Below, one piece after another: positions 9,032 through 33,495 of a stretch of DNA of 38,513 nt. The stretch is from Beijerinckiaceae bacterium. Its GTDB lineage: Bacteria > Pseudomonadota > Alphaproteobacteria > Rhizobiales > Beijerinckiaceae. Every line of letters begins with the position of its first letter. The first letter of the stretch is position 1. The notes beneath the pieces were generated by a model, which ran no database searches, was not told the origin of the DNA, and worked only from the letters and a program-made list of their open reading frames with translations. Position numbers and translations under genes: made by a program. The stretch covers positions 1 to 38,513 of the forward strand of contig CANJVX010000030.1 in the NCBI GenBank assembly GCA_947478405.1. Direction: 5' to 3'.

Positions 9032-9244
9032 ATGGCTACGGGAACTGTAAAATGGTTCGACGCGACAAAGGGATACGGATTCATCCAGCCAGATGATGGT
9101 GGCAAGGATGTGTTCGTCCACGTGAGCGCGGTTGAGCAGGCTGGCCTGCGTGGCCTTAATGAAGGCCAGAAGGTCAACTTCGAAGTGATTGCTGATAAGC
9201 GCACCGGTAAGTCCTCAGCGGGCAATCTCAGCGTCGCTGGTTGA
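9032..9244 (+). CDS. Cold-shock protein, CspA family
   Basis: A 70-residue single OB-fold RNA/ssDNA-binding chaperone. Both nucleic-acid motifs are present: RNP1 (KGYGFI, residues 13-18) and RNP2 (VFVHVSA). The start [20 protein letters not shown] is the classic CspA form. Such proteins melt mRNA secondary structure and act in cold adaptation or growth-phase control. The gene is monocistronic, with a long leader before it and a hairpin-plus-T-run terminator after it. It is not obviously related to the catabolic genes around it. Confidence 0.96.
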
Positions 9245-9291
9245 TTGCCAAAGGTCGCAATCGGGCTTTTGTGCCGATTGATATTTTTGAA

Positions 9292-9320
9292 AAGGGCTTC
9301 GCTGTTGCGGAGCCCTTTTT
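9292..9320 (+). terminator. Rho-independent terminator after cold-shock gene
   Basis: The stem AGGGCTTCG pairs with CGGAGCCCT (one G-U pair) around a six-base loop and is followed directly by TTTTT. It lies 48 bases after the cold-shock stop codon. Confidence 0.85.
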
Positions 9321-9510
9321 GTATTTGATGAAGTTTAGGGAACCTGCATATAGGTCCAGACGTTCAATATTGATAGGCGTGCCGTTTTGACCCATTTCGT
9401 GACTTGAGTGAGAGCACTCACCCGCAAGGGTTCAGCCGAACCCCAAGGACAGTGCCTTGAACTTCAAGACCATTTGGAAATGTAGGGGCCCGGTTACCCG
9501 AGGGATGGAG

Positions 9511-9750
9511 ATGCGAAAACAAAATTTGGGTCTCATAGCGCTAGAAAAAATCTGTCTCGATGTTCTTCGTGGTGCACCGGGATATGAAACTCTCGAAAAA
9601 GTCGAGGTCCGCGCAGTTCCTCGTGATCGGCATGACCACACATGGCAATTAAAGAGCATCCACCCGGATCATTCCGTTGGTCGCAAATGGGCGCCTTTCA
9701 AGCTGAAGCTCCAAGAGCTTCAGCAAGCATTTGACCTTGACGACACTTAA
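9511..9750 (+). CDS. Small hypothetical protein
   Basis: A 79-residue protein of no recognised family beginning MRKQNLGLIALEKICLDVL and ending LQELQQAFDLDDT. It is charged, without signal peptide or membrane segment, and looks like a small folded alpha/beta protein. The ATG at 9511 is chosen over upstream ATGs because GAGGG sits six bases before it. A small hairpin (GGGTTC/GAACCC, 9428-9443) and a short inverted repeat (TGAGTG/CACTCA, near 9405-9420) lie in the leader. Its TAA overlaps the TAA of the convergent amidase gene within TTAA at 9747-9750. Function unknown. Confidence 0.6.
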   Translation: MRKQNLGLIALEKICLDVLRGAPGYETLEKVEVRAVPRDRHDHTWQLKSIHPDHSVGRKWAPFKLKLQELQQAFDLDDT

Positions 9751-11093
9751 GCGAGCAGGGCCTCAACGCCTGCGGCAAGAGCGAGGAGTTTTGCATCCTG
9801 TCCACCCGGGCAGCTGAGCATGAGACCAGAGGGCGCATGCGGATTTTTCGTCATGGGAACCGAGATGGAGCATCCATCGAGAAAATTGATGACCGATGGA
9901 TTGCGCAACACCAGCATATTAAGGCGCGTGAAGTCCGCATCTTCATCAAACGCAGAGATCAGCGGCGCGATGATAGGAACGGTCGGATATGCAAGACAGT
10001 CGAATGCAGACATCCGCTGTTCAAATTTGGTGATGATTTCTGCACGGGTCCGCATGAGATCAATATATTCGATGGCTGATTGCTCATGACCACGCTGAAT
10101 TCGTGTCAAGACTCGCATGTCATATAGATCGGCAGAGGTTTCGATAAAACTGCGATGTGACGATAGGCTTTCGGGTGCTGCAAAACCACCCTTTGCATTC
10201 GCAATAGGGATTTGATCAATCTCCGGAAAACCTACTTCCTCAATTAACGCACCCGCATCATGAAGCAATTTCACGCTCGCTGAAAACGCGGCAGCTACAT
10301 CTGTGTCCATGTCATTCATGACATAGGCTATAGGAATGGCAATGCGCAGGCCTTTTGGTGTGCGCCTTACCGGTTTCGCAAGGGTTTCACCCGACAAAAA
10401 TGAATCAAAAATAGCACAGCAAGCAACGCTTCTTGCCAGAGATCCAATTGAATCGAGAGTTGTGGAGAGCGGAAATGCTCCTTGTTGCGGCACGCGACGC
10501 GCCGTGGGCTTATACCCCACGATCCCATTGAATGCCGCCGGGATCCGACATGAGCCACCGGTATCAGTACCTAAAGCGCCATGTGCCATCTTATCGGTAA
10601 TGGAGATGGCCGCACCGGACGAGGAGCCACCCGGAACGCGCGCATTTCCGCGATCATAAACATTTTTGGGCGTTCCATAGTGAGGATTGATACCAATTCC
10701 CGAAAAGGCAAATTCGGTCATGTTGGTTCGGCCGATAACAATGAAACCGGCAGCTTTTAGACGCGCCACGGCAGTTGCATCTTGTGTCGCTGGCTGAGCA
10801 TTTTTCAATACAATTGAACCGGCGCGCGTTTGCTCGCCCGCAATGTCGAACAGATCTTTGATCGACACAGGGATACCAGCATAAGCGGACGGTGCGGAGC
10901 CGGACTTGCGCAGTTCGTCCATCGCATGAGCTGCTATTTGTGAATCCTTGTTTGACACGCTGAGAAACGTGCTTGAGCCCTGACCGTTTCGATCTTTAAT
11001 CCGTATAAGGCAATCTTCAACGAGTTTTTGACTCGTTGTCGCCCCTTGCGCGAGGTCTTGCGCGAGTTGTTCAAGCGTCGGACCCATCATCAT
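9747..11093 (-). CDS. Amidase-signature family hydrolase (GatA/AtzF-like)
   Basis: A Ser-cisSer-Lys amidohydrolase of about 448 residues that should cleave a C-N amide bond. The catalytic triad is readable: Lys79 (PVSIKDLFD), cis-Ser157 (PGGSSSG) and nucleophile Ser181 (GTDTGGSCRIPA). It is the last gene of the long minus-strand catabolic operon. Three consecutive ATGs (11093, 11090, 11087) follow the upstream cupin stop by one base. The third has the best spacing to a weak TTGAG site, so the start is uncertain by two residues. A glutamyl-tRNA amidotransferase subunit role is unlikely, because gatB and gatC are absent and the neighbours are transport and oxidation genes. The physiological substrate is unknown, presumably an intermediate of the operon's pathway. 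Confidence 0.88.
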   Translation of the reverse strand: MMMGPTLEQLAQDLAQGATTSQKLVEDCLIRIKDRNGQGSSTFLSVSNKDSQIAAHAMDELRKSGSAPSAYAGIPVSIKDLFDIAGEQTRAGSIVLKNAQPATQDATAVARLKAAGFIVIGRTNMTEFAFSGIGINPHYGTPKNVYDRGNARVPGGSSSGAAISITDKMAHGALGTDTGGSCRIPAAFNGIVGYKPTARRVPQQGAFPLSTTLDSIGSLARSVACCAIFDSFLSGETLAKPVRRTPKGLRIAIPIAYVMNDMDTDVAAAFSASVKLLHDAGALIEEVGFPEIDQIPIANAKGGFAAPESLSSHRSFIETSADLYDMRVLTRIQRGHEQSAIEYIDLMRTRAEIITKFEQRMSAFDCLAYPTVPIIAPLISAFDEDADFTRLNMLVLRNPSVINFLDGCSISVPMTKNPHAPSGLMLSCPGGQDAKLLALAAGVEALLA

Positions 11094-11094
11094 C

Positions 11095-11475
11095 TCAAGT
11101 TGGATCGTAATAGTGGATTTCGAGCAGCAGACAGCCTTTATCCGAGCGGAAGGGACCATGAAATGCGCCGGGTGGCCGGCAGGCATAGGTGAAGGGTGCA
11201 TAGCTGTCGCCACCTTGACCTTTCCCATCATTGCCGACTGTCAGGTCGCCAGAAACCAAAAAAACCTCTTCCCAATATTCGTGAACAAAGGGTTGTGTTG
11301 TGTAGACACCCGCATCAAAGCGAAGGAGGCGTGTCCGCGACCCATGCTTGTTAACTTCATCAAGCGCGCCAGATAAAATCTTTTGTTGAATACCCGACGG
11401 ATAGCCGGCAGGTACTTCCCAGCCGCTGTTCATGTCGAGCGTGTGAAATTCATCATGCAGCTTGTTGATGGGCAT
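11095..11475 (-). CDS. Single-domain cupin protein
   Basis: A 126-residue small beta-barrel protein. The first cupin motif is around QPFVHEYWEEVFLVSGDLTVG (His, Glu and Glu as metal ligands). The second is around RPPGAFHGPFRSDKGCLLLEI (His). Related cupins are dioxygenases, isomerases or metal-dependent accessory enzymes. The ATG at 11475 is favoured over an upstream TTG because it keeps the gene clear of the preceding stop and has GAGG upstream. It is tightly packed between the signal-less binding protein (11 bases) and the terminal amidase (one base), so it is surely co-expressed. The exact reaction cannot be assigned from sequence. Confidence 0.78.
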   Translation of the reverse strand: MPINKLHDEFHTLDMNSGWEVPAGYPSGIQQKILSGALDEVNKHGSRTRLLRFDAGVYTTQPFVHEYWEEVFLVSGDLTVGNDGKGQGGDSYAPFTYACRPPGAFHGPFRSDKGCLLLEIHYYDPT

Positions 11476-11486
11476 GGCAGAAAACC

Positions 11487-12428
11487 TCAAGCAGTCCAAT
11501 ATTTCGAGAATTGGGTGGCGACAATGGAGCTAAATGGTGGATCGCCCTGAAGGATACCGACTTCACGACTGAACTGGTTCATCCCAATCACAAATTCGGG
11601 CGTGATCGTCGCATTGTAATAAGGGAGATCACGTTCAATCAAAGATTCAATCAGGTTTGCTTCTTGCTCGGGAAACAAGGCGCGTCCTGCTTTGGTCGCG
11701 AGAGAAACATCTTCTTTCAGTGCATTCTGCGTTGCGACGATGGCGCGAACAGCCGCTGCGGCCCCTTCCGGAGTGTCTGCAATGAGAGCGTCGCTGGTTG
11801 CAAGGCTCGCCATCGTATAGTTGAAGCAGCCCTTGGGACCATCGCCGCGCCGAATGTCGAGCACAACTGTCCCGACACCACGCGTGACTGCAACTTCGGT
11901 TCCCATGCCATTGGCCCAGAAACCGTCAATTTTCCCGTCCTCGAGAGCCTTTGCAGCCGTCAATCCGAAATTGACGGGGCCTGTACCAGGTGCGGCCCCC
12001 GGTACGGGAGCAATCTTGATTTGGTCGCGCTTCAGATCATAGCCCGCGTTAATGAGAAGGCGCTGCAGACCCATATTGACCCAGGGCGCCGCCCCAATGT
12101 TACGGCCTTTTACAATATCCAAATTGCCGCGCGTTGGATTGAGATCTGCGCGCATTACCAGAAACCAATACATGCCTTGCGCCTGAGCGCAGAGGAGCTT
12201 GGCACCATTCCATTCGGGGAAAGCTGCAAGCGCGGAATGGGCGGACCCTCCGACAAAATCGATGCTGCGATCGCGCAAGGCTGCGTAGCATTTATCGACA
12301 GGGAAAATCAGCTCCAGTTCGACGTCCAATCCTTCCCTCTTGAAGAAGCCTAGTTCCACCGCTGCCGCAGCGGGGAAATAGGAATTGGAGATCAGATCGG
12401 GAACAGCGAGTTTGAACTTGCGTCTCAT
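11487..12428 (-). CDS. NMT1/SsuA-like substrate-binding protein lacking a signal peptide
   Basis: A 313-residue type 2 periplasmic-binding fold of the NMT1/THI5/SsuA group. Landmarks are SNSYFPAAAAVELGFFKREGLDVELELIF, GSAHSALAAF and VVLDIRRGDGPKG. The start at 12428 follows the permease stop with one base between (TGACATG), and the protein goes straight into the mature fold. Extending upstream to 12518 adds a charged, non-hydrophobic stretch that overlaps the permease and is not a signal peptide. As encoded, the protein should stay in the cytoplasm unless it uses another route. Possible roles are a cytoplasmic ligand-sensing protein or an enzyme of the THI5-like type. A secreted relative is encoded at 14074-15057 in the same operon. 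Confidence 0.82.
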   Translation of the reverse strand: MRRKFKLAVPDLISNSYFPAAAAVELGFFKREGLDVELELIFPVDKCYAALRDRSIDFVGGSAHSALAAFPEWNGAKLLCAQAQGMYWFLVMRADLNPTRGNLDIVKGRNIGAAPWVNMGLQRLLINAGYDLKRDQIKIAPVPGAAPGTGPVNFGLTAAKALEDGKIDGFWANGMGTEVAVTRGVGTVVLDIRRGDGPKGCFNYTMASLATSDALIADTPEGAAAAVRAIVATQNALKEDVSLATKAGRALFPEQEANLIESLIERDLPYYNATITPEFVIGMNQFSREVGILQGDPPFSSIVATQFSKYWTA

Positions 12429-12429
12429 G

Positions 12430-13257
12430 TCAGCCCTCGTCGCGTCCAGAGAGTTCGACCTGCCAGGGTGCAACCTTTCGCTCAATGAAGCCAACAAAGG
12501 AATTGAGTAGTGTCGCAAGAACCATCAGTACAATAACCGGAACAAACATGCGTGCGGTATCAAACGAATTCGCGGCATTGATGATAATGGCCCCAAGCCC
12601 TGAAATTGCGGTAAAAAATTCGGCAATCACCATTGCAACGACCCCACGTCCGACAGCCAATTTTATGCCCGCCATAATATAGGGAATGGTTGCCGGTAGG
12701 ACGATGCGGCGCAGGATTGTGAAATCTGATGCGACGAAACTTTTACCTACTTCGACAAGCGTTTTGGGAACGGCACGCACACCAAGCCATGTGTTGATAA
12801 CGATCGGGAACACCGCCATCAAAAATACAACACAGGCCTTTACAGCGAACCCAAGTCCCATCCACAAAACCAGCAGCGGTACCAGCGCAACCAACGGCAT
12901 AGCATAGGCACCCGTAATGAATATCCCGATGGCTGCTTCAAGAAAGCGTGACCGACCAATAACCAGGCCAAGCGGCACGCCCACAAGAATGGCCAGAGCA
13001 TAGCCGACAACGAAGGCTTTCATGCTTTGCATTAGTGCGGCAACCAATTGACCATTTTTAACAAGCATCCAAAAGGCGGCGGCTATTGCTGAAGGGTAGG
13101 ATCCAAAAATCGGATTTATGTCCCGACCGAATATTTCCCAAGTCAGAATAACGCTCACAACGGATAGGGTCGTGATCGCCCATTTGGGGATTTCACGTTT
13201 GAGCTTGGGCGCTTCATCAGCAGGAATCGATGGGACCATGGGGGTTACCTTGCTCAT
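12430..13257 (-). CDS. ABC transporter permease (SsuC/TauC-type)
   Basis: An inner-membrane permease of 275 residues with six or so hydrophobic segments. It contains the EAA-type cytoplasmic loop (IKLAVGRGVVAMVIAEFFTAISGLGAII) that couples to the ATPase. It belongs to the nitrate/sulfonate/taurine-type family. The ATG at 13257 shares its A with the ATPase stop (TGATG), which fixes the start and shows translational coupling. With the ATPase (13257-14051) and the secreted binding protein (14074-15057) it makes a complete importer. The substrate is unknown, but the family takes small anionic or aromatic compounds. Confidence 0.92.
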   Translation of the reverse strand: MSKVTPMVPSIPADEAPKLKREIPKWAITTLSVVSVILTWEIFGRDINPIFGSYPSAIAAAFWMLVKNGQLVAALMQSMKAFVVGYALAILVGVPLGLVIGRSRFLEAAIGIFITGAYAMPLVALVPLLVLWMGLGFAVKACVVFLMAVFPIVINTWLGVRAVPKTLVEVGKSFVASDFTILRRIVLPATIPYIMAGIKLAVGRGVVAMVIAEFFTAISGLGAIIINAANSFDTARMFVPVIVLMVLATLLNSFVGFIERKVAPWQVELSGRDEG

Positions 13258-14051
13258 CAATGCACCGCCTCGACGCCGTGCAGCGCTTTCCACACTCTAT
13301 ATCTCGTTGCGGCAAACTCGGCGCTTCCACGTAATGCGCCAAGATCGCCACGCGGGCGAGGCAAAGTTACGTTGATTGTTTCCTGAATGCAGCCTTCGCG
13401 CATAACGATAATACGATCAGCCAGCAAAACTGCTTCATCGAGGTCGTGGGTTACAAAGATAATTGTCTTCTTTGTGCGCGCCTGAATGTCGAGCAATTCA
13501 CCCTGCAGCGTTTCTCGGGTTTGTGCATCCAGCGCACCGAACGGTTCATCCATCAAGAGAACTTCGGGATCGATTGCTAAGGCGCGCGCAATGCCCACTC
13601 GCTGCTTCATCCCGCCTGACAATTGGTAGGGGCGTCGATTGGCGGCATCTTTCAGCCCGACTAATTCAAGATATCGTTGCGCTGTCTCTTTTAGTTCAGA
13701 ACCACGCATACCCTTCATCTCGAGGCCAAACATGACATTTTGTGCAGCCGTTAGCCACGGCAGCAATTCTGCATGTTGGAACACGAGGCCGCGATCATAA
13801 CCGCAGCCATTCACTTGTTTGCCACCCACAGTCACCCGACCGTGGCTGGCGGATTCGAGCCCCATGAGAATTCGCAAGGCCGTAGTTTTGCCGCAACCAC
13901 TCGGGCCAATCAAAGTGACGATTTCAGCTTGTTTGACGTCAAAATTGACGGACTTCAAAGCTTGAACAAGTTGAACTTGCCCATCAACCTTCAAGGTGAA
14001 GGTCTTTGACACGTCCGTCATGCTGACTTGGCCGATCTGTGCCTCGCTCAT
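13257..14051 (-). CDS. ABC transporter ATP-binding protein (SsuB/TauB-type)
   Basis: A 264-residue nucleotide-binding subunit that powers the adjacent permease. It has Walker A GPSGCGKT (49-56), Q-loop Q92, signature LSGGMKQ (144-150), Walker B LLMDEP (165-170) and switch His202 (THDLDEA). All catalytic residues are present. The start at 14051 has GGAG upstream at a spacing of about nine bases and lies 22 bases after the binding-protein stop. The gene overlaps the permease by one base in TGATG. The assignment to the nitrate/sulfonate/taurine group follows from sequence style and from the partner permease and NMT1-type binding protein. Confidence 0.95.
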   Translation of the reverse strand: MSEAQIGQVSMTDVSKTFTLKVDGQVQLVQALKSVNFDVKQAEIVTLIGPSGCGKTTALRILMGLESASHGRVTVGGKQVNGCGYDRGLVFQHAELLPWLTAAQNVMFGLEMKGMRGSELKETAQRYLELVGLKDAANRRPYQLSGGMKQRVGIARALAIDPEVLLMDEPFGALDAQTRETLQGELLDIQARTKKTIIFVTHDLDEAVLLADRIIVMREGCIQETINVTLPRPRGDLGALRGSAEFAATRYRVWKALHGVEAVH

Positions 14052-14073
14052 GGGGCTTTACTCCGTTCTGGCG

Positions 14074-15057
14074 TCAGCCCTTTGGTCCGGCAATAGCGAG
14101 TGCTTTCTCGCGCACGCTGCCGTCGATAAATTTTTCCAACTGGATGGGGGCCTGTAGCGTTTCGGTTTTTACGAAAAGGTCTTGCATCCAGCCAAGTTTC
14201 CGACGGTCAATCGACATTTCAGTGTCGATTGCATTGAGTTTCGTCACTTCGTCGAAAACAAAGTCTGCGCGTGGATCGTCATCCTTCGCATTGGTCATCT
14301 CACGCGTAAGTTTGACGGTTGCATCCTTATTCTTAAGCGCAAAACGATAGGCTTGAATGGAGGAGGCTAGGAATTTGGCAGCATCATCGGGGCGGCTAGC
14401 TATCGTCTTGGGTCCCATATAGGTACAAAAGCGAACGTAGTCGGGCGTGATATCATGCGCATGCACGAGAATCTTCAAACCCATCTTTTCAGTAATAGGC
14501 GCAAATTCACTCGAAGATGCCGCAGCCTGAATGATGCCTGCCATCACCGCCCTAAAACGATCGGTGTCTGAACCCATAGCGGCATATTGAACATCTTTGG
14601 CGTCGATGTTGTTCTTTTCAAGCACCGCGCGAGCGAAAAGATCAGGCAATGCACCGGGCGATGAAATGCCAAATGTTTTGCCTTTTAGGTCCGCTACCGA
14701 CTTGATGTCAGCTTTCGTGAAAATCGCATAGGTCAGGCCGGGCCAGTAGCACCCCACAAGCCGCACATCCGCACCTTTGGAAAATGCAACCATTGGAGCA
14801 CCAGGGCTGCCTTCATATGAATCGATCTCTCCAGCGATCAATGCTTTTAGCGCAATGGCATCCCCCTTGAATTGCATCGACTCAATCTTGATTCCGTTTT
14901 TTTCCGCAAAGCCGCCCTTTTCGGCCATGAAGACGAAGCCAGCATCGCTTTTGGCCTCTACCATGCCGTGCTTCCAGACCTTCTGTGCCTGTGCCTCGCC
15001 GGTGACACCTGCGAGTGCGCCAATCGTCAATGCCAATGTTGAAATGCTCTTCATCAT
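14074..15057 (-). CDS. Secreted NMT1/SsuA-like ABC substrate-binding protein
   Basis: The periplasmic receptor of the operon's ABC importer, 327 residues. A Sec signal (MMKSISTLALTIGALAGVTGEAQA) is cleaved before QKVWKHG. The mature part has FVMAEKGGFAEKNGIKIESMQFKGD and GKTFGISSPGALPDLFARAVLEKN, typical of NMT1-like binding proteins. The start at 15057 lies five bases after GGAGG; an ATG three bases further in is possible. It precedes the ATPase by 22 bases. There is a 200-base gap between it and the upstream amidase (15058-15257) in which I see no gene or clear promoter, so it may be a secondary transcription or processing point in the operon. Confidence 0.88.
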   Translation of the reverse strand: MMKSISTLALTIGALAGVTGEAQAQKVWKHGMVEAKSDAGFVFMAEKGGFAEKNGIKIESMQFKGDAIALKALIAGEIDSYEGSPGAPMVAFSKGADVRLVGCYWPGLTYAIFTKADIKSVADLKGKTFGISSPGALPDLFARAVLEKNNIDAKDVQYAAMGSDTDRFRAVMAGIIQAAASSSEFAPITEKMGLKILVHAHDITPDYVRFCTYMGPKTIASRPDDAAKFLASSIQAYRFALKNKDATVKLTREMTNAKDDDPRADFVFDEVTKLNAIDTEMSIDRRKLGWMQDLFVKTETLQAPIQLEKFIDGSVREKALAIAGPKG

Positions 15058-15257
15058 TTGCGCCTCCATCTGCCTTTTGGCAGCGTTAAATCCATCGAAA
15101 ATCATGCAACGATAATGCCACTCACTCGTCTTCCGTAAATTCACGCTTGAGAAGAGCAACCGGCGCAAAGTCTCTTTTGAGTAAGGCGTTGAAGACCACG
15201 GTGGCGCTCTCGTCATTTTCGCGCTGTCCGCGGAGTCAATGCCCTGCATCCTTCTTT

Positions 15258-16643
15258 TTAAGACCTTTCATATCGTTGCCCATGTTCGTCTCGGGCAACC
15301 TTTAGGAAACCAATAACATTTTCGATGGCAGCTGCATGCGCGAAGAGCGCAGCATCTTCATCAAGAAAGCCTAGGAATTGGAAGCCAATCGGCAGGTCAT
15401 TCAAACTGGCCAATGGTAAGGAGAGAGTGGGGACACCAAGAAATGAGCCTTGCACGGCAAAGATCGGATTGCCGGTTGTCTCAAGTCCGACGGGTGCGAC
15501 ATCGGGTGCCGAAAGCGTGATGCAACATTCAACCTTATTTGCAAGGCTCGCGAAGGCCGCACGGATCTCCTCTCGGCGAAGGATATCGTGACGATAATCG
15601 TCGACGCTCATGCCTTCTGCTTCGTGTAGGCGTTCGACCAAGCCGTTGGATAATTTACTCTCGTCTTTGTCAACGTAAGTGTTGAGCGGCCAGCGTGATT
15701 CCCAAGCGTTGATGCGACGTGTCAGTGGGAGCGACTCTGGCAGTAGCTTTTCAATCCGTGTGACATCTGAATCCGTGTCGGCGGAGATAATCGTCACGCC
15801 TGCAACAGAGAGCAACGCGAGCGCGTCATTCAAGACTTTGCGTGCGCCGTCGACCGCTATGTCCCAACCTGGTGTTTTGAGAAAAGCCACAGTCGTCGGC
15901 ATGTCGGCTTCCGGGGGCAGGGGGGGGCCGATGATGCCAGCATGCCCGGGGTCGCCTCCAGCCCGTGTAACAATTTCTATCGCAACCTGCCAGCAATCTG
16001 CCAGAGATGCGCCGAGCACACCTTGTACGGATTGGCTCATATAATCATGACTGCCGCCGCGATTGATCCCGCCCAACGAGGGTTTAAAACCATAGACACC
16101 ACAATAGCTAGCTGGGCGTAAAATAGAGCCCACGACTTGTGTGCCCAGTCCCGCGCTGATCATGCCGCAACCAACACCCGCTGCTGATCCGCTCGACGAG
16201 CCGCCCGGTGTACGTGATACATCATAGGGATTGGTGGTTGAGCCTGGTCGTGTTGCAGCAAATTCGGTTGTGACTGTTTTTCCCAGAATGATCGCCCCCG
16301 CCTCACGTAAGGCGTGAACCGAGGCTGAATCATAGCCCGGCGCCCATCCTTCGTAGAGCTCCGAGCCCATTTGTGTCGGCATATCGGCCGTTTCAATGAC
16401 GTCTTTGACGCCGATGGGCATACCATCGATATACGATAGGGGTGCGCCCTTGTGCCAGCGCTTTGTGCTTGCGTCAGCAGCTTTTTGTGCCGCCTCCAAG
16501 CGTGTGGTTGTAAAGGCTTTGACCTGCGGCTCGCGCGCCTCGATCTCCGCGACACAGCGATCAAGGAACGCTCGCGGCGTATCGGATCCATTGGCAAAAT
16601 TTGCAATAGACATCGCGAAGGAGCGGGGCAGGGGTCTTGACAT
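15258..16643 (-). CDS. Amidase-signature family hydrolase (second amidase of the operon)
   Basis: A 461-residue Ser-cisSer-Lys amidase. The triad reads Lys80 (MPIGVKDVIE), Ser149 (TPGGSSSGSAA) and nucleophile Ser173. The loop before the nucleophile is GTQVVGS rather than the usual GTQTGGS or GTDTGGS, a small departure that may affect substrate choice. It differs throughout from the amidase at 9747-11093, so it is not a recent duplicate. Two amidases in one operon suggest two successive C-N cleavages, or two related amide substrates. The ATG shares its A with the monooxygenase stop (TGATG at 16641-16645), showing translational coupling. Confidence 0.9.
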   Translation of the reverse strand: MSRPLPRSFAMSIANFANGSDTPRAFLDRCVAEIEAREPQVKAFTTTRLEAAQKAADASTKRWHKGAPLSYIDGMPIGVKDVIETADMPTQMGSELYEGWAPGYDSASVHALREAGAIILGKTVTTEFAATRPGSTTNPYDVSRTPGGSSSGSAAGVGCGMISAGLGTQVVGSILRPASYCGVYGFKPSLGGINRGGSHDYMSQSVQGVLGASLADCWQVAIEIVTRAGGDPGHAGIIGPPLPPEADMPTTVAFLKTPGWDIAVDGARKVLNDALALLSVAGVTIISADTDSDVTRIEKLLPESLPLTRRINAWESRWPLNTYVDKDESKLSNGLVERLHEAEGMSVDDYRHDILRREEIRAAFASLANKVECCITLSAPDVAPVGLETTGNPIFAVQGSFLGVPTLSLPLASLNDLPIGFQFLGFLDEDAALFAHAAAIENVIGFLKVARDEHGQRYERS

Positions 16644-17869
16644 CAGGCGACCTCTTCCAACGTGATCTCGGCTGCCCGCTGCTGCAGAGCTATCATCGAT
16701 GTGCGCAACAAATAGCCTCTTGCCTTCACCGGATCAGCTGCAGTCGTTGCAAGGTCGTCGAGAACTTTCTTGCGCTCTTCAGGTTCACGGGTCTCAAGTT
16801 GCTTTTTATTTGCGATCGATTGGGCCTGCACGAATTCAATCGAAACGGTGCGACGTTGCAATGAGTAAAGATCCATCAAGCGATCAGTTGCGCCATCGAT
16901 TACCTGCACTAGTTTTTCAGCGAGATTGGCAGCATCCTGCAATCCACCATTCAGCCCCATGCCACCGATCGAATTATTCACGTGCGCAGAATCGCCCGCA
17001 AGCAGAACGCGGCCTTTCCGGAAAGTGGATGCCACGCGTTGATGCACGGTGTAAATATTACGATGCACGATGTCATAGTGGGTTTTGTTGGGGAAGAATT
17101 TTTGGAAGCGTGCATGTACCGCTTCATCTGTCAGAAGGGAACCTTCGGAGACGTTTGCATCGGCGGGAAAGACAAGGCGCCAAAGACCGGGAGGCCCATC
17201 GGCCGCGACTTTGAAGCAATTGCACCATTCATCGGGGTCTGCAAAATACGAACGTGGGCAATAACCGAGTTCTTTATTGAAATCGAAAGGCGTGGTGAGG
17301 ACGAGAAATCGCTCGGCCCAAGTGAAACCTTCGAAAGAAATATCAGCACTTTTGCGTACAGTTGATCTACCGCCATCGGCACCAATCAACCAGCTGCCTT
17401 CGTGCGTTTCAAGACCGTGTTTCGTTTCTATCTTAGCCTGCACGCGATCCGCGGTTTGTTCAAAGGACACCATTTTATGTCCGAACATGACTTCGACATT
17501 TGGAATTTTTTGTAGACGTTCGAGCAGGATTTTCGCAGTTTTGAACTGCTCGCACTGGATCACATAAGGGTATTTGGTGTCGTTCTTGAGCAGGTCTAGG
17601 TCGAAGGTTGCAACAAGATTATGGGTTGGACGATCCCAAAACTGGAAGATGGGTGCAGTAAGTCCGACGCGTGCCATATCTTCTACCAGACCCGCCTCCC
17701 CCAAGACTTCGAGTGTGGCAGGATGTGTCGTCGCTGCGCGCGGATCAGCCTGCAGTTTATCATTCGCATCAAAAACACGTACCGGTATCCCTTGGCGCCC
17801 TAGAAGCAGTGCGCAGAAGAGGCCAACCGGACCGCCGCCAGAAATGAGAACTCTTTTGTCAGACGTCAT
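16643..17869 (-). CDS. FAD-dependent monooxygenase (PheA/TfdB / UbiH-like)
   Basis: A class A flavoprotein hydroxylase of 408 residues that should use NAD(P)H and O2 to hydroxylate an aromatic or enol substrate. The Rossmann FAD site is GGGPVG (11-16). The DG motif is GADGGRS (163-169). The second FAD site is GDSAHVNNSIGGMGLNGGLQD, starting near residue 292. The start at 17869 has GAGG five bases upstream. It follows the GntR gene by 26 bases and overlaps the next amidase in TGATG. The combination with two amidases and an importer suggests an amide-bearing or N-heterocyclic aromatic as pathway substrate. This is inference from context. Confidence 0.9.
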   Translation of the reverse strand: MTSDKRVLISGGGPVGLFCALLLGRQGIPVRVFDANDKLQADPRAATTHPATLEVLGEAGLVEDMARVGLTAPIFQFWDRPTHNLVATFDLDLLKNDTKYPYVIQCEQFKTAKILLERLQKIPNVEVMFGHKMVSFEQTADRVQAKIETKHGLETHEGSWLIGADGGRSTVRKSADISFEGFTWAERFLVLTTPFDFNKELGYCPRSYFADPDEWCNCFKVAADGPPGLWRLVFPADANVSEGSLLTDEAVHARFQKFFPNKTHYDIVHRNIYTVHQRVASTFRKGRVLLAGDSAHVNNSIGGMGLNGGLQDAANLAEKLVQVIDGATDRLMDLYSLQRRTVSIEFVQAQSIANKKQLETREPEERKKVLDDLATTAADPVKARGYLLRTSMIALQQRAAEITLEEVA

Positions 17870-17895
17870 ATTTTCCTCACGGATTGGCGTAGGTG

Positions 17896-18594
17896 CTAGA
17901 TGTTGCGTGTCAGGTTATTGCGGAATTCTTCAATATGGCCGCGCATAGCCGCGTCCGCGCCGTCTGCATCATGATCACGGATAGCTGCGAGGATGGCTTC
18001 ATGCTGAGCATGCACATGCGCATGATGGCCGGGTCGGTTCAACGAGATAAACCAAAAGCGCAATGAGCGATCATGCAGTTTTGATAAAGTATCGGCAAGC
18101 ACATGATTCTTGGATGCGCGAGCAAGAACATTATGGAATTCGCGATCCAGCAGCATCAATTGTTCGGTGTTGCGCACCTCGACCCATTGGCCGGCGCGCG
18201 CGAGGATATCACACAGATGTTTGATCTCATCAGGTTCGGCGCGCTCTGCCGCCAGACGCATACCGTGACATTCATTGATTAGGCGAACGTCAACAATCTG
18301 CATAATTTCATCTAGGCTAACAGGTTTTACAATCACGCCTTTGCGCGGCATGACATCAACCATGCCTTCGAGCATCAGGCGATCAATGGCTTGGTGAACG
18401 GGAGTCCGACCAAAGCCCAGAGAGGCCGAAACAAATGCCTCGTTGAGATATTCGCCCGGTCGGAAGGTGCAGGTGATGATACGATGTTTGATCGCCTCAT
18501 AGGCAGCATCCCTTAAGGATTGCGCTCCAGCGGCGATGCGAGCGCGCGGGTCGCTCACCGGCTTTCCGCGGGTAGGGACGTTTTGTTCGTTCAT
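17896..18594 (-). CDS. GntR-family transcriptional regulator, FCD (FadR-like) type
   Basis: A 232-residue regulator with an N-terminal winged helix-turn-helix at about residues 25-90 (LRDAAYEAIKHRIITCTFRPGEYL, FGRTPVHQAIDRL). A C-terminal FCD ligand domain carries metal-binding type residues in LDREFHNVLAR, HAQHEAILAAI and MRGHIEEF. It overlaps the DUF2848 stop as ATGA, so it is expressed from the operon it probably controls. FCD regulators usually repress catabolic operons and release DNA on binding a pathway acid. A palindrome at 19286-19307 overlapping the operon promoter is the natural candidate operator. Ligand unknown. Confidence 0.92.
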   Translation of the reverse strand: MNEQNVPTRGKPVSDPRARIAAGAQSLRDAAYEAIKHRIITCTFRPGEYLNEAFVSASLGFGRTPVHQAIDRLMLEGMVDVMPRKGVIVKPVSLDEIMQIVDVRLINECHGMRLAAERAEPDEIKHLCDILARAGQWVEVRNTEQLMLLDREFHNVLARASKNHVLADTLSKLHDRSLRFWFISLNRPGHHAHVHAQHEAILAAIRDHDADGADAAMRGHIEEFRNNLTRNI

Positions 18595-19268
18595 CCCATC
18601 ACCGGTAGCTTATCAAGCCGATAGCTATGTCTAATGGTGCGGTTTAGTATCGGATCATGCAGTTCATATTCGAAAAAATCCGCCGGCCTGATGCCGCCCT
18701 TGGCGGCAAACGTGCCACAAAACATAATGGATTTCTCATCAAGCGATTGATGATCTTGATAGCCCTTGATCAAGGCCATCGGATACTGCATCGCGGTCAC
18801 TGAACCCTCTTGATAGAGGACACGCGCGCCGTTTTCTTCGATGAACGAGCGCATGATAAGATTCTCCCAATGTGGAACGACATCGGCGAAGGCCCAAAAT
18901 TCAGGTGCAATTGGTTTTTCGCACATCTGTTTGGAGACAGTGACATTATAGGTTTCGGCCTTGCGGTCCGTATGGTCTGAACCAACGCCCACCCAAAGCT
19001 CGCCACCAGATTGCAAGAGGACAAATTCGACCTCGCCGGAAGAATCCCCACCTACAGTCTCGATGCGCTGTTCCGTAGTCAGGCGCGATGCGCTCACACG
19101 ATAATAAATGGGTGTCGAGACGGGTCGTGCGACGCCGAGCTCTTCGAGCTCTTTAATATGCTTCTCAAGTGCTGCCTTATCGCTCCCGGTCCAGCCGGCG
19201 ACTATGGCCTTGGAGATTATTATCTCCTTTTTTTCAGAAACTTGGCCCTTATGAAACATCACCAGCAT
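18591..19268 (-). CDS. DUF2848 family protein
   Basis: A 225-residue protein of the DUF2848 family, which is poorly characterised; its fold has been related to fumarylacetoacetase-like enzymes. Recognisable blocks are VGVGSDHTDRKAE, MFCGTFAAKGGIRPADFFEYELHDP and RTIRHSYRLDKLP. It is the first gene of the long minus-strand operon. The start at 19268 has only a weak GGCGG site; an alternative ATG lies three codons inside. The 3' end overlaps the GntR start by four bases (ATGA). An FAH-like hydrolase or decarboxylase acting late in the pathway would fit the operon content, but no activity can be claimed. Confidence 0.82.
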   Translation of the reverse strand: MLVMFHKGQVSEKKEIIISKAIVAGWTGSDKAALEKHIKELEELGVARPVSTPIYYRVSASRLTTEQRIETVGGDSSGEVEFVLLQSGGELWVGVGSDHTDRKAETYNVTVSKQMCEKPIAPEFWAFADVVPHWENLIMRSFIEENGARVLYQEGSVTAMQYPMALIKGYQDHQSLDEKSIMFCGTFAAKGGIRPADFFEYELHDPILNRTIRHSYRLDKLPVMG

Positions 19269-19285: not shown

Positions 19286-19307
19286 CTACAGTGAAATATC
19301 ACAGTAG
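19286..19307. promoter_or_regulatory. 22-bp imperfect palindrome, candidate GntR operator
   Basis: The sequence has arms CTACAGTGA and TCACAGTAG around AATA and is symmetric at 8 of 9 positions. It lies 18 bases before the DUF2848 start and covers the predicted -10 of the operon promoter. Binding would block transcription. The operon's own FCD-type GntR protein is the likely binder, by position only. Confidence 0.5.
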
Positions 19308-19364: not shown

Positions 19365-20141
19365 TCAGGAGAGTTCAATCCGGATGGGAACATGATCGGA
19401 GGGTTTTTCAAGGGCCCGCATATCCTTGTCTATCGTGACCGACTTGAGGCGATCTGCCGCCTGTGGGGAGAGCAGCAGATGGTCAATGCGGATGCCGTTG
19501 TTCCGTTGCCAGGCTCCGGCCTGATAATCCCAGAACGTGTAGAGCCCGGCGTCGTCGGTCGTCGCCCGAAAGGCTTCGGTCAGACCCAAATTAAGGAGCG
19601 TCTGGAATTTCTCCCGCGTTTGGGGAAGGAAGAGGGCGTCATTTGCCCAAGCAGACGGATCATAACAATCACGTGCGGCCGGAATGACATTGTAATCGCC
19701 AGCCAGTACGATTGGCTCTTCCAGGCGCATAAGTTCGCGCGCATGTGCGATGAGGCGATCCATCCAAGCCAGCTTGTAGGGGTACTTCTCTGTTCCCACG
19801 GGATTTCCATTGGGTAAGTAGATCGAGGCAACGCGCACGACCCCAGTGCCGTCTGATACGACGGCTTCAATATACCGCGCCTGCGCGTCCAGTTCATCAC
19901 CGGGTAGACCCGTCCGGATTTCCATAGGGCGCTTGGACAATATCGCAACGCCATTAAAGGTCTTCTGACCATGCACAGCAACGTTATAACCCGCGGCCTC
20001 AACTTCCAGCCGCGGAAAGGCCTCATCCATACATTTCAATTCTTGCAGGCAGAGGACGTCAGGTTCGACAGTTTTTAAATAGGCCAGCAAATGATCGAGC
20101 CGTTGGCGAACAGAATTGACGTTCCATGTCGATATGATCAT
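19365..20141 (-). CDS. xthA: Exodeoxyribonuclease III
   Basis: An AP endonuclease and 3'-5' exonuclease of base-excision repair, 258 residues. The active-site residues of the exonuclease III family are all present: N8 (STWNVNS), E34 (LQELKC), D149 and N151 (GDYNV), D220 (IRIDHLL) and the general base H250 (PSDHVPI). The start is placed at the ATG at 20141 (MIISTWNVNSV), which matches the usual N-terminus. A longer frame upstream adds unrelated residues. It lies 20 bases after the acyltransferase on the same strand and is probably co-transcribed with it. Confidence 0.96.
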   Translation of the reverse strand: MIISTWNVNSVRQRLDHLLAYLKTVEPDVLCLQELKCMDEAFPRLEVEAAGYNVAVHGQKTFNGVAILSKRPMEIRTGLPGDELDAQARYIEAVVSDGTGVVRVASIYLPNGNPVGTEKYPYKLAWMDRLIAHARELMRLEEPIVLAGDYNVIPAARDCYDPSAWANDALFLPQTREKFQTLLNLGLTEAFRATTDDAGLYTFWDYQAGAWQRNNGIRIDHLLLSPQAADRLKSVTIDKDMRALEKPSDHVPIRIELS

Positions 20142-20161
20142 TGCGCGATCCCCCGCATCAT

Positions 20162-21013
20162 TCAGACCCAGCGACCATGCGCCCACATCCATTCGCCTGG
20201 ACGCGAGCGGATATTTCTTTCGAGCGCCGCCTGAATAGCTGCCGTTGTGGCCAAAACATTAGCGTCGCGGTCTCCGGTTGTGCTCACGTCGATTTCTTCG
20301 AGGCGGATGCGAAAGCGCACGCCAGGATCGCGCATGACATGAGCCACAAAGACTGGCTTTTTGAGTGTGACAGCCAAATAGGCAGGGAAGGCATTGGAGG
20401 GCGCAAGACGTCCGAAAAAAGGAACCTTGATACCGCCTCTTTCCCGCAGATCTGCCATGATCGACAAGGCACCACCAGCCTTTACATATTTTGCGGCCAA
20501 CAAAGCCGTGCTCGCTTGTTTAGGAAAAAGACCATCCGGATAGAGAGGGACGCGTTGTGCAAGTGCCATGTCGTTCACGAGCGGATTTTTCAACCGGCGG
20601 TAAATTCCGGCTGTTCTGATCCCCAATTTCGCGAAACCCACAACCGCTATTTCCCAATTACCCTGATGGGCTGTGCAAGCGATGAACCCTTTCGTCGCCG
20701 AAAGCCTGTTGCGGACATTTTCAATGTCTTCGACGATCACGCGATCCGAGTTCAAGATGTCTTCGAGGCGAAAACTTTCGGCGAAAACCCGCCCCATTGT
20801 ATCCCAGCTCTGGATTGCCAGCTTTGTTCTCTCGCCACGGGTCTCGTCCGGATAGGCAGCGCGCAATTGCGCAATCATACGACGATGTCGGCTAGAAAAT
20901 GGAGCAAACAGGCGCCACAGCGCCCCGCTGATCCAGGAGGCGTGCTCGATTGGCAGACTTCGCATTAGGACAGCAAAGACGTAATACAGCGCGTATTCTA
21001 TGCGATAGCGCAA
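20162..21013 (-). CDS. Lysophospholipid / lipid A acyltransferase (HtrB/LpxL-like)
   Basis: An inner-membrane-associated acyltransferase of 283 residues that transfers an acyl chain to lipid A or a related lipid. The catalytic HX4E is H116 and E121 (HQGNWE), the family form. An N-terminal hydrophobic helix (ALYYVFAVLM) anchors the protein. The C-terminus WMWAHGRWV is typical. The start is a TTG at 21013 (LRYRIEYALYYVFAV region); no ribosome site is evident. The first in-frame ATG (20965) would delete the anchor, so the TTG is kept. It is followed by xthA. Confidence 0.87.
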   Translation of the reverse strand: MRYRIEYALYYVFAVLMRSLPIEHASWISGALWRLFAPFSSRHRRMIAQLRAAYPDETRGERTKLAIQSWDTMGRVFAESFRLEDILNSDRVIVEDIENVRNRLSATKGFIACTAHQGNWEIAVVGFAKLGIRTAGIYRRLKNPLVNDMALAQRVPLYPDGLFPKQASTALLAAKYVKAGGALSIMADLRERGGIKVPFFGRLAPSNAFPAYLAVTLKKPVFVAHVMRDPGVRFRIRLEEIDVSTTGDRDANVLATTAAIQAALERNIRSRPGEWMWAHGRWV

Positions 21014-21411
21014 AAGGTGGGCCCGAGAAGAAAGGGATGCAGCACGCGGGCTACGGAGCCTGCTCTTTTTGGGTGCGCGGGTGCGATTGTCAAGTCTGCG
21101 GGCCGAAAGCTAACTGGAATTGCAGCCAAATCGCCGATGGTATGGCTGGGTGCCTCAATACTGGGCTCCGTTCAGCGTTTTTATCACGCGCCGCCCCAAT
21201 CCGTGCGCTGGCCAGGATTTAGGTAGGCAAAATATTGTATTTATTGATGTTTTTTATCGATTATCGTCAGATTATTCCGCAACGCAGCGTGTCGTACCCT
21301 TGCGAAAGTTGGTGCCGCCAATTCTCCGGTATCTGGTATAATTAGGGTCAGGTCGGCCCGATTGAGGCCTAGCGGCTATGGCTGCCAATAACCGTTATCG
21401 GAGGAATGAAT
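21014..21411. other. Intergenic region with extended -10 promoter for the TRAP operon
   Basis: This 398-base gap lies between the divergent acyltransferase and dctP-like genes. A TGGTATAAT at 21334-21342 is a consensus extended -10 element about 70 bases before the dctP-like ATG. No good -35 is present, so an activator may be needed. Short open frames in the gap lack ribosome sites and family resemblance, and I see no RNA gene. Confidence 0.45.
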
Positions 21412-22431
21412 ATGACATTGACGCGTCGCCACGTACTTGCCGGCTCTATCGCTGCTCCCGCAATTCTTTCCTTCTCGTCGGCCCAAGCCGCAACGACACT
21501 GAAAATCTCTCACCAATTCCCGGGTTCGAATGGCAAGGATGGCGATTTCCGCGACATTCTTTGTCAGCGCTTTGCGCAGGAAATTGCAGCAAAGAGCGGC
21601 GGGGAAATGGCTGGGCAGGTCTATGCAGGTTCCTCGCTGATGAAGGTCAATTCCCAAGTGTCATCTTTGCGAAAGGGCGCACTCGATATGTCGCTTGTTC
21701 CCATTTCATATGCGGGCGGCGAAATGCCTGAGGTGAATATCGGTCTGATGCCGGCTCTTGTCAGTTCCTACAAGCAGGGTCTCGCTTGGAAAACCGCCGC
21801 GGTGGGCAAAGAGTTCTCTAAATTTTTGAACGACAAAGGAATTATGATCGTGACGTGGATCTGGCAGGCGGGCGGAGTTGCCAGTCGGTCTACACCCCTT
21901 ATCAATCCAGAAGATGCCAAAGGTATGAAAATTCGCGGTGGGTCACGCGAGATGGACTTGATGTTGCAGGCTGCAGGCGCCGCTGTGCTCTCGCTGCCGT
22001 CAAATGAACTCTATGCAGCTATGCAGACGGGCGCATGCGATGCAGGACTTACATCGTCAACGAGCCTGATCTCGTTCAAGCTGGAAGAGATTGCTAAGCA
22101 TCTGACAACAGGTCGGGGACAATCTTATTGGTATATGCTTGAGCCTTTGATTATCTCGAAATCGATTTTTGATGCTTTACCAAAGAAGCAGCAAGATTTG
22201 ATTATGGAAGTTGGCGAGAGTCTTGAAGCCTATGGGCGGGATGCGGCCATGGTAGATGATGTTGCCGTTGCCAAGATCTACGAGAAAGCCGGCGCCAAGG
22301 TGCATGACTTGGATGCGAACATTGTTGAGAAATGGCGTAAGATCGCACGTGAGACGGCGTGGAAGGATTATGCCGAGAAGAACACCAATAGTGCGAAGCT
22401 TCTGCAGTTGGCCGAAGCTGTGCCCGCATGA
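21412..22431 (+). CDS. TRAP transporter substrate-binding protein (DctP family)
   Basis: The periplasmic receptor of a TRAP dicarboxylate-type transporter, 339 residues. It begins MTLTRRHVLAGSIAAPAIL with a twin-Arg-like signal ending AQA, before ATTLKISHQFP. The mature part has typical DctP blocks: GQVYAGSSLMKVNSQVSSLRKGALDM and GMKIRGGSREMDLMLQAAGAAVLSLPSNELYAAMQTGACDA. The ATG at 21412 is preferred to 21406, because GGAGG lies seven bases before it but only one before the other. It overlaps the DctQ start by four bases (ATGA). Given the downstream malonyl-CoA synthetase, malonate or a similar dicarboxylate is the likely ligand (inference). Confidence 0.93.
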   Translation: MTLTRRHVLAGSIAAPAILSFSSAQAATTLKISHQFPGSNGKDGDFRDILCQRFAQEIAAKSGGEMAGQVYAGSSLMKVNSQVSSLRKGALDMSLVPISYAGGEMPEVNIGLMPALVSSYKQGLAWKTAAVGKEFSKFLNDKGIMIVTWIWQAGGVASRSTPLINPEDAKGMKIRGGSREMDLMLQAAGAAVLSLPSNELYAAMQTGACDAGLTSSTSLISFKLEEIAKHLTTGRGQSYWYMLEPLIISKSIFDALPKKQQDLIMEVGESLEAYGRDAAMVDDVAVAKIYEKAGAKVHDLDANIVEKWRKIARETAWKDYAEKNTNSAKLLQLAEAVPA

Positions 22432-22982
22432 GTTCTCATGGTTTTGAAATACCGGGCGCTTCTGCGCCGAGTGAAAAGCTTAGCGGCCCCGTTGGGGCCG
22501 CCGAAGTTTTGCTGGCGCTCATCAATAAAGTGATCATGGTTTGTGCATCTATCGCATTGATCGCGGCCAGTGTGATCCTCAGCTATAGCGTTGTCGTTCG
22601 TTATTATTTCAAATCCCCCACGTACTGGCAGGATGAAGCCTCTGTTTTCCTTCTCGTCGGAGCGACATTCCTGACAGCTGCGCATGTTCAATCCAAGCGG
22701 GGACATGTTGGTATCGACGCGATCGTTGGATTTCTCTCGACTCGGGCAAATCGTCTGCGACTCTTGCTGGTTGATATGGCTAGTTTCACGTTTTGTGCAT
22801 TTTTTTCTTGGAAATCCTGGACTCTTTTCTATGAAGCTTTTGAAGAGGGGCAGGTCACATCGTCCACTTGGGCACCGCCACTCTCGATACCCTATTCAGT
22901 GATGGCATTTGGCATGAGTTTACTCTGCCTTCAAATCGCCCTGCAAATTGCGGCCGGTCTCAAAAAAGGTCAGAACCTGTGA
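22428..22982 (+). CDS. TRAP transporter small permease (DctQ family)
   Basis: The small inner-membrane subunit, 184 residues with four hydrophobic segments at about 32-55, 68-88, 105-125 and 145-170. The conserved WQDEAS between segments 1 and 2 and the RGHVGID loop are characteristic of DctQ. It overlaps dctP-like upstream (ATGA) and dctM-like downstream (GTGA), so all three subunits are translated together. The N-terminal tail of about 30 residues is longer than in many family members. Confidence 0.93.
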   Translation: MSSHGFEIPGASAPSEKLSGPVGAAEVLLALINKVIMVCASIALIAASVILSYSVVVRYYFKSPTYWQDEASVFLLVGATFLTAAHVQSKRGHVGIDAIVGFLSTRANRLRLLLVDMASFTFCAFFSWKSWTLFYEAFEEGQVTSSTWAPPLSIPYSVMAFGMSLLCLQIALQIAAGLKKGQNL

Positions 22983-24337: not shown

Positions 24338-24347
24338 GGTTTTTTTG

Positions 24348-33319: not shown

Positions 33320-33359
33320 AGCGCCCCTCCAAGAGCCGTCTGGATGCCGGCCTGTTCCT

Positions 33360-33384
33360 ATATACGGAATGATGTTCCGTATAT
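33360..33384. promoter_or_regulatory. Perfect 10-5-10 inverted repeat upstream of the Rieske gene
   Basis: ATATACGGAA, a five-base spacer TGATG, then TTCCGTATAT: every arm base is symmetric. It lies 40 bases upstream of the Rieske start, where an operator would overlap the promoter. The regulator is unknown, and no matching regulator gene is adjacent. Confidence 0.6.
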
Positions 33385-33495
33385 GAGAAACTAACCTGTT
33401 CGGAGAAACCTGCTTTGCGCTGGATCAAGTTGCTGTGCGTTGAAACGAGCCAGCAAAATCCTGAGCCCGAAACGAAGCACCCGCGGGGTCTTGGC

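Follow-up and report, generated by a model that had tools for sequence, protein, structure and literature searches.

A conserved ten-gene DUF2848 operon with a candidate GntR operator and a putative role in the breakdown of nitrogen-containing (hetero)aromatic compounds

The DNA analysed here, a stretch of 38,513 nucleotides referred to as the window, is contig C30 (GenBank CANJVX010000030.1) of assembly GCA_947478405.1 from a Beijerinckiaceae bacterium, a 3.03-Mb genome in 79 contigs with an estimated completeness of 95%. Ten genes on its minus strand, running from 19268 to 9747, are best read, by a small balance of probability, as one GntR/FCD-controlled catabolic operon for the import and breakdown of a nitrogen-containing (hetero)aromatic acid or an aromatic amide. 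All ten were found at the same positions as in an earlier sequence-only reading of this DNA, which had described every junction but one as an overlap or a short gap. Measured from the coordinates in transcription order, the junctions are -4, +26, -1, +203, +22, -1, +1, +11 and +1 bp, and the description holds for eight of the nine (-4 to +26 bp). The long junction, between amidase 1 and the binding protein SBP1, is about 190-203 bp, a value set by the choice of the SBP1 ATG. The features of the operon are the following:

19291..19302, no strand assigned: GTGATATTTCAC palindrome, candidate GntR operator, sole exact GTGAWATWTCAC in the 3.03-Mb genome
18591..19268, minus strand: DUF2848 protein, 225 amino acids, predicted FAH fold, probable metal-dependent C-C hydrolase or decarboxylase
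17896..18594, minus strand: GntR/FCD transcription regulator (Pfam), whose gene presence tracks the palindrome
16643..17869, minus strand: FAD-dependent aromatic monooxygenase (Pfam FAD_binding_3; PDB matches PnpA and HspB)
15258..16643, minus strand: amidase 1, amidase-signature enzyme (Pfam), closest solved structure malonamidase E2 (1ock, 1.9e-48)
15119..15280, minus strand: remnant of a UbiD-family decarboxylase gene (residues 444-497 of an intact homologue, 65% identity, two TGA stops)
14074..15054, minus strand: SBP1, binding protein of the NMT1 family, hydrophobic leader at the N-terminus; start uncertain (15054-15066)
13257..14051, minus strand: ABC transporter ATPase (Pfam ABC_tran)
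12430..13257, minus strand: ABC transporter permease (Pfam BPD_transp_1)
11487..12428, minus strand: SBP2, NMT1/THI5-like protein, probably cytosolic, without visible signal peptide (weak NMT1 match, 9.1e-6)
11095..11475, minus strand: small ChrR-like cupin, 126 amino acids (Cupin_7/ChrR-like, 28.1 bits, cut-off 27)
9747..11093, minus strand: amidase 2, amidase-signature enzyme (Pfam Amidase), of the amidase type commonest beside DUF2848

Amidase 2 is taken to start at about 11093 instead of 11231, the first ATG of its open reading frame (ORF), and the last codons of amidase 1 extend into the UbiD remnant. A scan of the operon for internal promoters was uninformative, with 8 sigma-70-like sites found and 8.4 expected.

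The gene order is conserved in relatives. The complete ten-gene set is present in the same order in three loci (L034, L036 and L041), L032 shows the first nine genes in order before the retrieved stretch ends, and the portion from the monooxygenase to amidase 2 is found on another contig in L165. Gene calls for several of these loci came from a simple caller that missed some genes, such as the L034 cupin, which is present in the ORF list. The earlier reading would have been refuted if no relative had kept the order, and relatives do keep it; its claim that the genes act together gains from this conservation and from the single operator-like palindrome before the first gene.

The centre of GTGATATTTCAC lies about 28 bp upstream of the DUF2848 start, and with up to one mismatch allowed it is the only match in the window, where 0.13 would be expected. 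Its wider distribution was followed in 112 de-duplicated DUF2848 loci, the window excluded, comprising 29 from relatives, 72 named loci and 11 plasmid loci. The named loci derive from the best 80 among the matches listed, minus 8 that duplicated relatives, and four plasmid loci (L065, L067, L154 and L155) were excluded as not anchored on DUF2848. The palindrome precedes DUF2848 in 16 of the 28 loci with this GntR (identity of at least 44%) and in 0 of the 84 without it (Fisher 3e-12), and among the 16 are alpha-, beta- and gammaproteobacteria, such as Roseateles (L062) and Pantoea (L149). In 2.12 Mb of loci, duplicates included, 24 sites were found, 19 of them assigned to DUF2848; the other five belong to a flavin reductase gene, an HpaB gene, another gene and, in two cases, no assigned gene, one of the last two (Pantoea L149) being 39 bp from the annotated DUF2848 start. 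In the Roseateles locus both the DUF2848 unit and the flavin reductase-HpaB-cupin-amidase unit bear the palindrome. Across 61 genomes of relatives there are 43 sites, compared with 7 for a reversed-pattern control. From these patterns we infer that the palindrome is a candidate operator to which GntR would bind.

DUF2848 is present in 31 of the 61 relatives and in 35 of 289 genomes drawn from throughout the class. Its partners in the 112 loci are an amidase of the amidase 2 type (63), the cupin (53), the FAD monooxygenase (29), GntR (28), SBP2 (20), HpaB (16), amidase 1 (14), a UbiD-type gene (8) and SBP1 (8). Amidase 2 and the cupin are the commonest of these partners. The FAD monooxygenase and HpaB occur together in one locus only (L080), and of the 53 loci with the cupin, 38 also carry one or other of these oxygenases. 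Because the two oxygenases are nearly exclusive and recur with the cupin, they are read as one oxygenation step at which two unrelated enzymes alternate. The annotated order flavin reductase, HpaB, cupin, amidase, with DUF2848 nearby, is seen in Caballeronia sp. NK8, Roseateles sp. XES5 and Thioclava.

The cupin is associated with DUF2848 beyond the immediate relatives. When whole genomes are counted, and not loci selected for DUF2848, both genes are carried by 25 of the 61 relatives, DUF2848 only by 6, the cupin only by 3 and neither by 27 (Fisher 1.6e-8); the corresponding counts are 23, 2, 3 and 9 within 37 genus members (8e-5) and 15, 20, 5 and 249 in the 289 genomes (8e-12), all of these p-values being too small because the genomes share ancestry. 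Cupins were accepted at E<=1e-50 in the 61 relatives, a cut-off of our own choosing that excludes four genomes with weaker cupins (G011, G047, G055 and G060), and at E<=1e-40 in the 289 genomes, in many of which the first 15 candidates were scored. In 8 of the 15 class-wide co-carriers the two genes are on one contig at most about 7.2 kb apart; in the other 7 they are apart.

Structure prediction and fold search place the DUF2848 protein in the FAH superfamily by its fold. Residues E79, E81, D98, K113, H37 and E40 are invariant in 28 sequences, and, in a comparison by motif only, the metal site E-x-E ... D with a Lys and the lid His-x-x-Glu dyad of FAHD1 are present, the FAHD1 active-site residues being those given in passages of PMC7056447 and PMC8398924. 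The predicted fold is closest to fumarylpyruvate hydrolases, with 10-20% sequence identity in structural alignments. DUF2848 shares fold and active-site motif with FAH enzymes such as fumarylpyruvate hydrolase, HpcE and FAHD1, the likeness being to the gentisate and homoprotocatechuate lower pathways, but differs from these hydrolases in its low identity, in its separate Pfam family and in that its activity is a prediction. It is probably a metal-dependent C-C hydrolase or decarboxylase, as judged from the modelled fold and motifs. The "late FAH-like step" of the earlier reading is therefore supported as FAH-like, its position in the pathway being only a guess. DUF2848 is mentioned in no paper of the literature searched.

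The closest solved relatives of the FAD monooxygenase are the p-nitrophenol monooxygenase PnpA (6ain, 9.9e-71) and the 6-hydroxy-3-succinoylpyridine monooxygenase HspB (7da9, 8.8e-58), a likeness known from structure-database matches, whereas the surrounding operons differ from that of the window; the nearness to HspB is a hint of an N-heterocycle. Homologues with 54-62% identity to this monooxygenase stand in a different cluster on plasmids of Mariluticola and Agrobacterium vitis (L065 and L067), with an amidohydrolase, a DUF4286 protein and an "amino acid synthesis" (PF06684) protein as partners. The two amidases, called unrelated in the sequence-only reading, are in fact both amidase-signature enzymes (PF01425), 24% identical over 462 columns and each with the Lys, GGSSSG and Ser motifs.

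The small cupin reaches the Cupin_7 sequence cut-off and has a predicted cupin fold, and its His65, Glu69, Glu70 and His106 are invariant in 22 aligned sequences; compared with the three-His site of DAD, as far as described in a part of PMC4219425, the first motif His is absent. Its activity could not be assigned by fold, as ChrR, TM1459, KdgF, putative dioxygenases and acetylacetone dioxygenase were nearly tied. A small cupin, LumY (16 kDa), acts after ring opening in an N-heterocycle pathway, the lumichrome (riboflavin) lum cluster, according to passages of PMC12746152. That cluster has another enzyme set, for which the paper reports a putative fumarylacetoacetate hydrolase, LumV, of unassigned role, and LumY is likened to our cupin by description. 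The riboflavin/lumichrome cluster was rejected as a match for the operon, as the genes differ.

SBP1 has an N-terminal hydrophobic leader. No signal peptide is visible in SBP2 by hydropathy and inspection, and in the listed relatives the N-termini begin with the domain itself, so the importer is read as SBP1, permease and ATPase. The importer of the earlier reading is retained for these three, and the second NMT1 protein is removed from it. SBP2 and the cupin are probably pathway enzymes, not side pieces, and SBP2 is a caution against labelling every NMT1 protein as part of a transporter.

The long junction marks a lost gene, which the sequence-only reading, silent also on the operator, had not noticed. 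A UbiD-type gene of about 560-590 residues is found in the operon of 8 de-duplicated loci (L032, L036, L038, L039, L042, L047, L049 and L081) and also in L165; it lies exactly between amidase 1 and SBP1 in L032, L036, L042 and L081, and the L036 copy was identified by Pfam and NCBIfam. The window's operon holds no intact UbiD gene, only the fragment at 15119-15280, which the L036 protein matched in a search of the own genome with an E-value of 4.3e-14; by tblastn it scored 69.7 bits, compared with at most 20.8 in 200 query shuffles. The remnant in L041 is another one (residues 5-51, 62%), and those in L034 are smaller. A tree of concatenated operon proteins (17 tips, some of which lack several genes) joins the window to L041, the gene being lost in both, and L034 (lost) to L032 (intact), with supports of 0.999 and 1.000. 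The gene was therefore lost at least twice, if it was not regained. The ancestral operon would have carried a UbiD-type decarboxylase between amidase 1 and SBP1, deleted in the window. Between the window and L041 the ratio of nonsynonymous to synonymous substitution rates (dN/dS) is 0.03-0.11 in seven genes with measurable dS, and rough since dS is mostly >1; dS is saturated for SBP1, the ATPase and the permease. Roughly, the remaining genes appear to be under purifying selection, and none looks free of constraint. Elsewhere in the own genome lie two UbiD paralogues that are intact and share 51% identity with the operon UbiD of relatives, both beside molybdenum hydroxylase subunit genes and the one on C33 also near an NMT1 protein:

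G000:C33:12796-14331 (L172): intact UbiD paralogue
G000:C53:10567-12087 (L173): intact UbiD paralogue

The reaction steps, their order and the substrate class, as we infer them, would be as follows. SBP1, permease and ATPase would import the substrate, most likely an N-containing (hetero)aromatic acid or an aromatic amide, and the FAD monooxygenase would hydroxylate the ring. Ring opening would follow, carried out either by the small cupin in the role of a dioxygenase or by the monooxygenase, in which case the cupin would act on the product of opening. Amide bonds would be cleaved by the amidase-signature enzymes, amidase 1 possibly on a dicarboxylate mono-amide by analogy with malonamidase E2, and DUF2848, as a metal-dependent FAH-type enzyme, would cut or decarboxylate a 2-oxo acid near the end of the pathway. 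GntR would bind the palindrome about 30 bp upstream of DUF2848 and be released by a pathway compound. Uptake, an oxygenase and C-N hydrolases had been proposed before and are supported; the accompanying "stepwise de-amidation" is a guess.

With moderate confidence, the most likely substrate class is that of N-heteroaromatic or amide-bearing aromatic acids. The aerobic nicotinate (nic) pathway of NicC, NicX, NicD, NicF and NicE also combines an FAD monooxygenase with C-N hydrolysis of ring-opened products, and a few relatives have NicF-like and NicE-like genes next to the operon. NicF and maleate isomerase are enzymes of pyridine breakdown. In G001 and G007 the operon also encodes a protein with its best match (1.5e-14) to maleate isomerase and one with its best PDB match (2.5e-71) to 3ot4/3uao, identified as NicF, the maleamate amidohydrolase, in a passage of PMC5806882. 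In G021 and G023 NicF-like and maleate-isomerase-like genes lie on the contig of the DUF2848 operon, within about 15 kb. A close maleate-isomerase-like gene occurs in 17 of the 61 genomes. The module was rejected as a part of the pathway, being in the operon of G001 and G007 only and on other contigs in most of the 17 carriers. It also forms a separate unit in which the maleate-isomerase-like protein and the NicF-like amidohydrolase are joined by a second FAD monooxygenase and, in some cases, by an SBP2-like protein; no NicX-like dioxygenase was recognised in these units, most of their neighbours being unscanned:

L053 3631-7208, L052 12492-16064, L157 and L159-L162: maleate-isomerase/NicF-like unit, alone or fused to the DUF2848 operon

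Two further links were discarded. Malonyl-CoA decarboxylase and AMP-ligase genes near the L040 operon suggested malonate, but an opposite-strand gene lies between and the flanks vary among relatives; a supposed molybdenum hydroxylase upstream of DUF2848 in L035 and L037 is actually exonuclease III, a lipid-A acyltransferase and a cyclase.

Several observations weigh against a single regulated pathway of this kind. The own genome lacks a close homologue of either NicF or maleate isomerase (best 43% partial and 33%), so the route here does not run through the maleamate end, and the operon has amidase-signature enzymes, a cupin and an FAH-fold protein instead. The substrate class of the sequence-only reading, an amide-bearing or N-heterocyclic aromatic, remains the most likely, with the NicF-like neighbours in relatives in its favour and this absence against it. 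The maleate-isomerase-like gene is near DUF2848 in only 4 of the 17 carriers. The exact palindrome is missing in 12 of the 28 loci with this GntR, and only 14 of the 43 sites in relatives precede DUF2848, 29 being elsewhere. Fold search favours no single activity for DUF2848 among FAH enzymes or for the cupin among cupins, and the selection estimates are imprecise. Residue 29 of the window's DUF2848 is Ser, whereas Arg occupies this position in 104 of 105 matched relatives and Lys in the remaining one; in FAHD1 the corresponding Arg is listed in the catalytic centre. Finally, the 112 loci include a cupin in 53 and an oxygenase of either kind or both in 45 (29 FAD, 16 HpaB, 1 shared), and DUF2848 also serves without cupin or oxygenase.

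This last point bears on the idea that the operon is shared by two pathways, with amidase 2, DUF2848 and the cupin detoxifying or salvaging a general amide or 2-oxo acid and the monooxygenase, amidase 1 and the transporter serving a second compound under the same regulator. On plasmids of Pantoea, Phyllobacterium, Paraburkholderia, Paracoccus and Caballeronia sp. SL2Y3, amidase 2 and DUF2848 stand without oxygenase, so DUF2848 is not confined to this upper pathway, and in Vibrio maritimus an aminotransferase-annotated gene accompanies DUF2848 and the cupin with neither oxygenase nor amidase among the listed genes. Yet one palindrome and tight junctions bind all ten genes, and the kind of oxygenase varies but recurs with the cupin in the 38 loci counted above; a division into two pathways is very improbable. 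A carbocyclic phenolic amide or acid degraded by a gentisate-like route is a rather doubtful alternative, in which hydroxylation and ring cleavage by the cupin would be followed by acylpyruvate hydrolysis by DUF2848, the amidases acting on a side chain. Fumarylpyruvate hydrolases, the closest in fold to DUF2848, act after gentisate cleavage; the PnpA and HpaB families act on phenols; and in Bradyrhizobium amidase 2 and DUF2848 lie near genes that in our reading of the sequences look homoprotocatechuate-type. Closeness in fold does not fix a substrate, however, and the cupin is a single domain of 126 residues, unlike the two-domain gentisate dioxygenases, while NicF-like and molybdenum-hydroxylase neighbours indicate N-heterocycles.

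A five-ring acid of pyrrole or furan type, such as pyrrole-2-carboxylate, is a distinctly improbable substrate; it would be hydroxylated to a lactam that an amidase opens, UbiD interconverting acid and free ring where kept. Pyrrole-2-carboxylate is a known substrate of a two-component flavin monooxygenase, and HpaB with flavin reductase fills the monooxygenase slot in 16 of the 112 loci. The PDB matches of UbiD include PA0254 (4ip2) and 6h6x/6h6v, which we take to be heteroaromatic-acid decarboxylases, but matches at this distance do not settle the substrate, no enzyme specific to five-membered rings was identified, and the cupin and the FAH-type enzyme are left without a clear step. A bolder form of the favoured GntR-controlled operon, tentative and rather unlikely, is an undescribed N-heteroaromatic-acid route in which the cupin would be the ring-cleaving dioxygenase, the cytosolic SBP2 an enzyme, and DUF2848 a new FAH-type C-C cleaver shared by several such pathways, all in one GntR-palindrome regulon.

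The operon of the window is made of known enzyme families in an arrangement for which no description was found in the literature searched, other terms or other papers not being excluded. DUF2848 is widespread and uncharacterised, and its predicted FAH fold, its usual partners (amidase 2 and the cupin) and the candidate operator make its function testable with a short list of substrates. The UbiD deletion shows that operons of this kind lose steps while selection is kept up on the remaining genes, so that predicting a pathway from gene content alone can mislead.

Upstream of the operon lies an exonuclease III gene (19365-20192). Downstream, a 97-amino-acid ORF on the plus strand (9457-9750) is convergent with amidase 2, its stop codon overlapping the end of that gene by 4 bases; a strong plus-strand hairpin followed by a T run (9288-9321) and a cold-shock-like ORF of 70 amino acids on the other strand (9032-9244) lie beyond. 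Positions 21406-27232 hold a TRAP transporter (DctP, DctQ, DctM), after which come genes for an AMP-ligase and a CoA-transferase III. No operator copy was found near a second aromatic-type gene group at 32033-35558, which has CoA-transferase and thiolase-like genes beside it and includes a 319-amino-acid ORF with no family assigned, as well as two recognisable genes:

32033-33319: Rieske oxygenase with a LigXa-type C-terminus
34452-35558: Cupin_2 ORF of 368 amino acids

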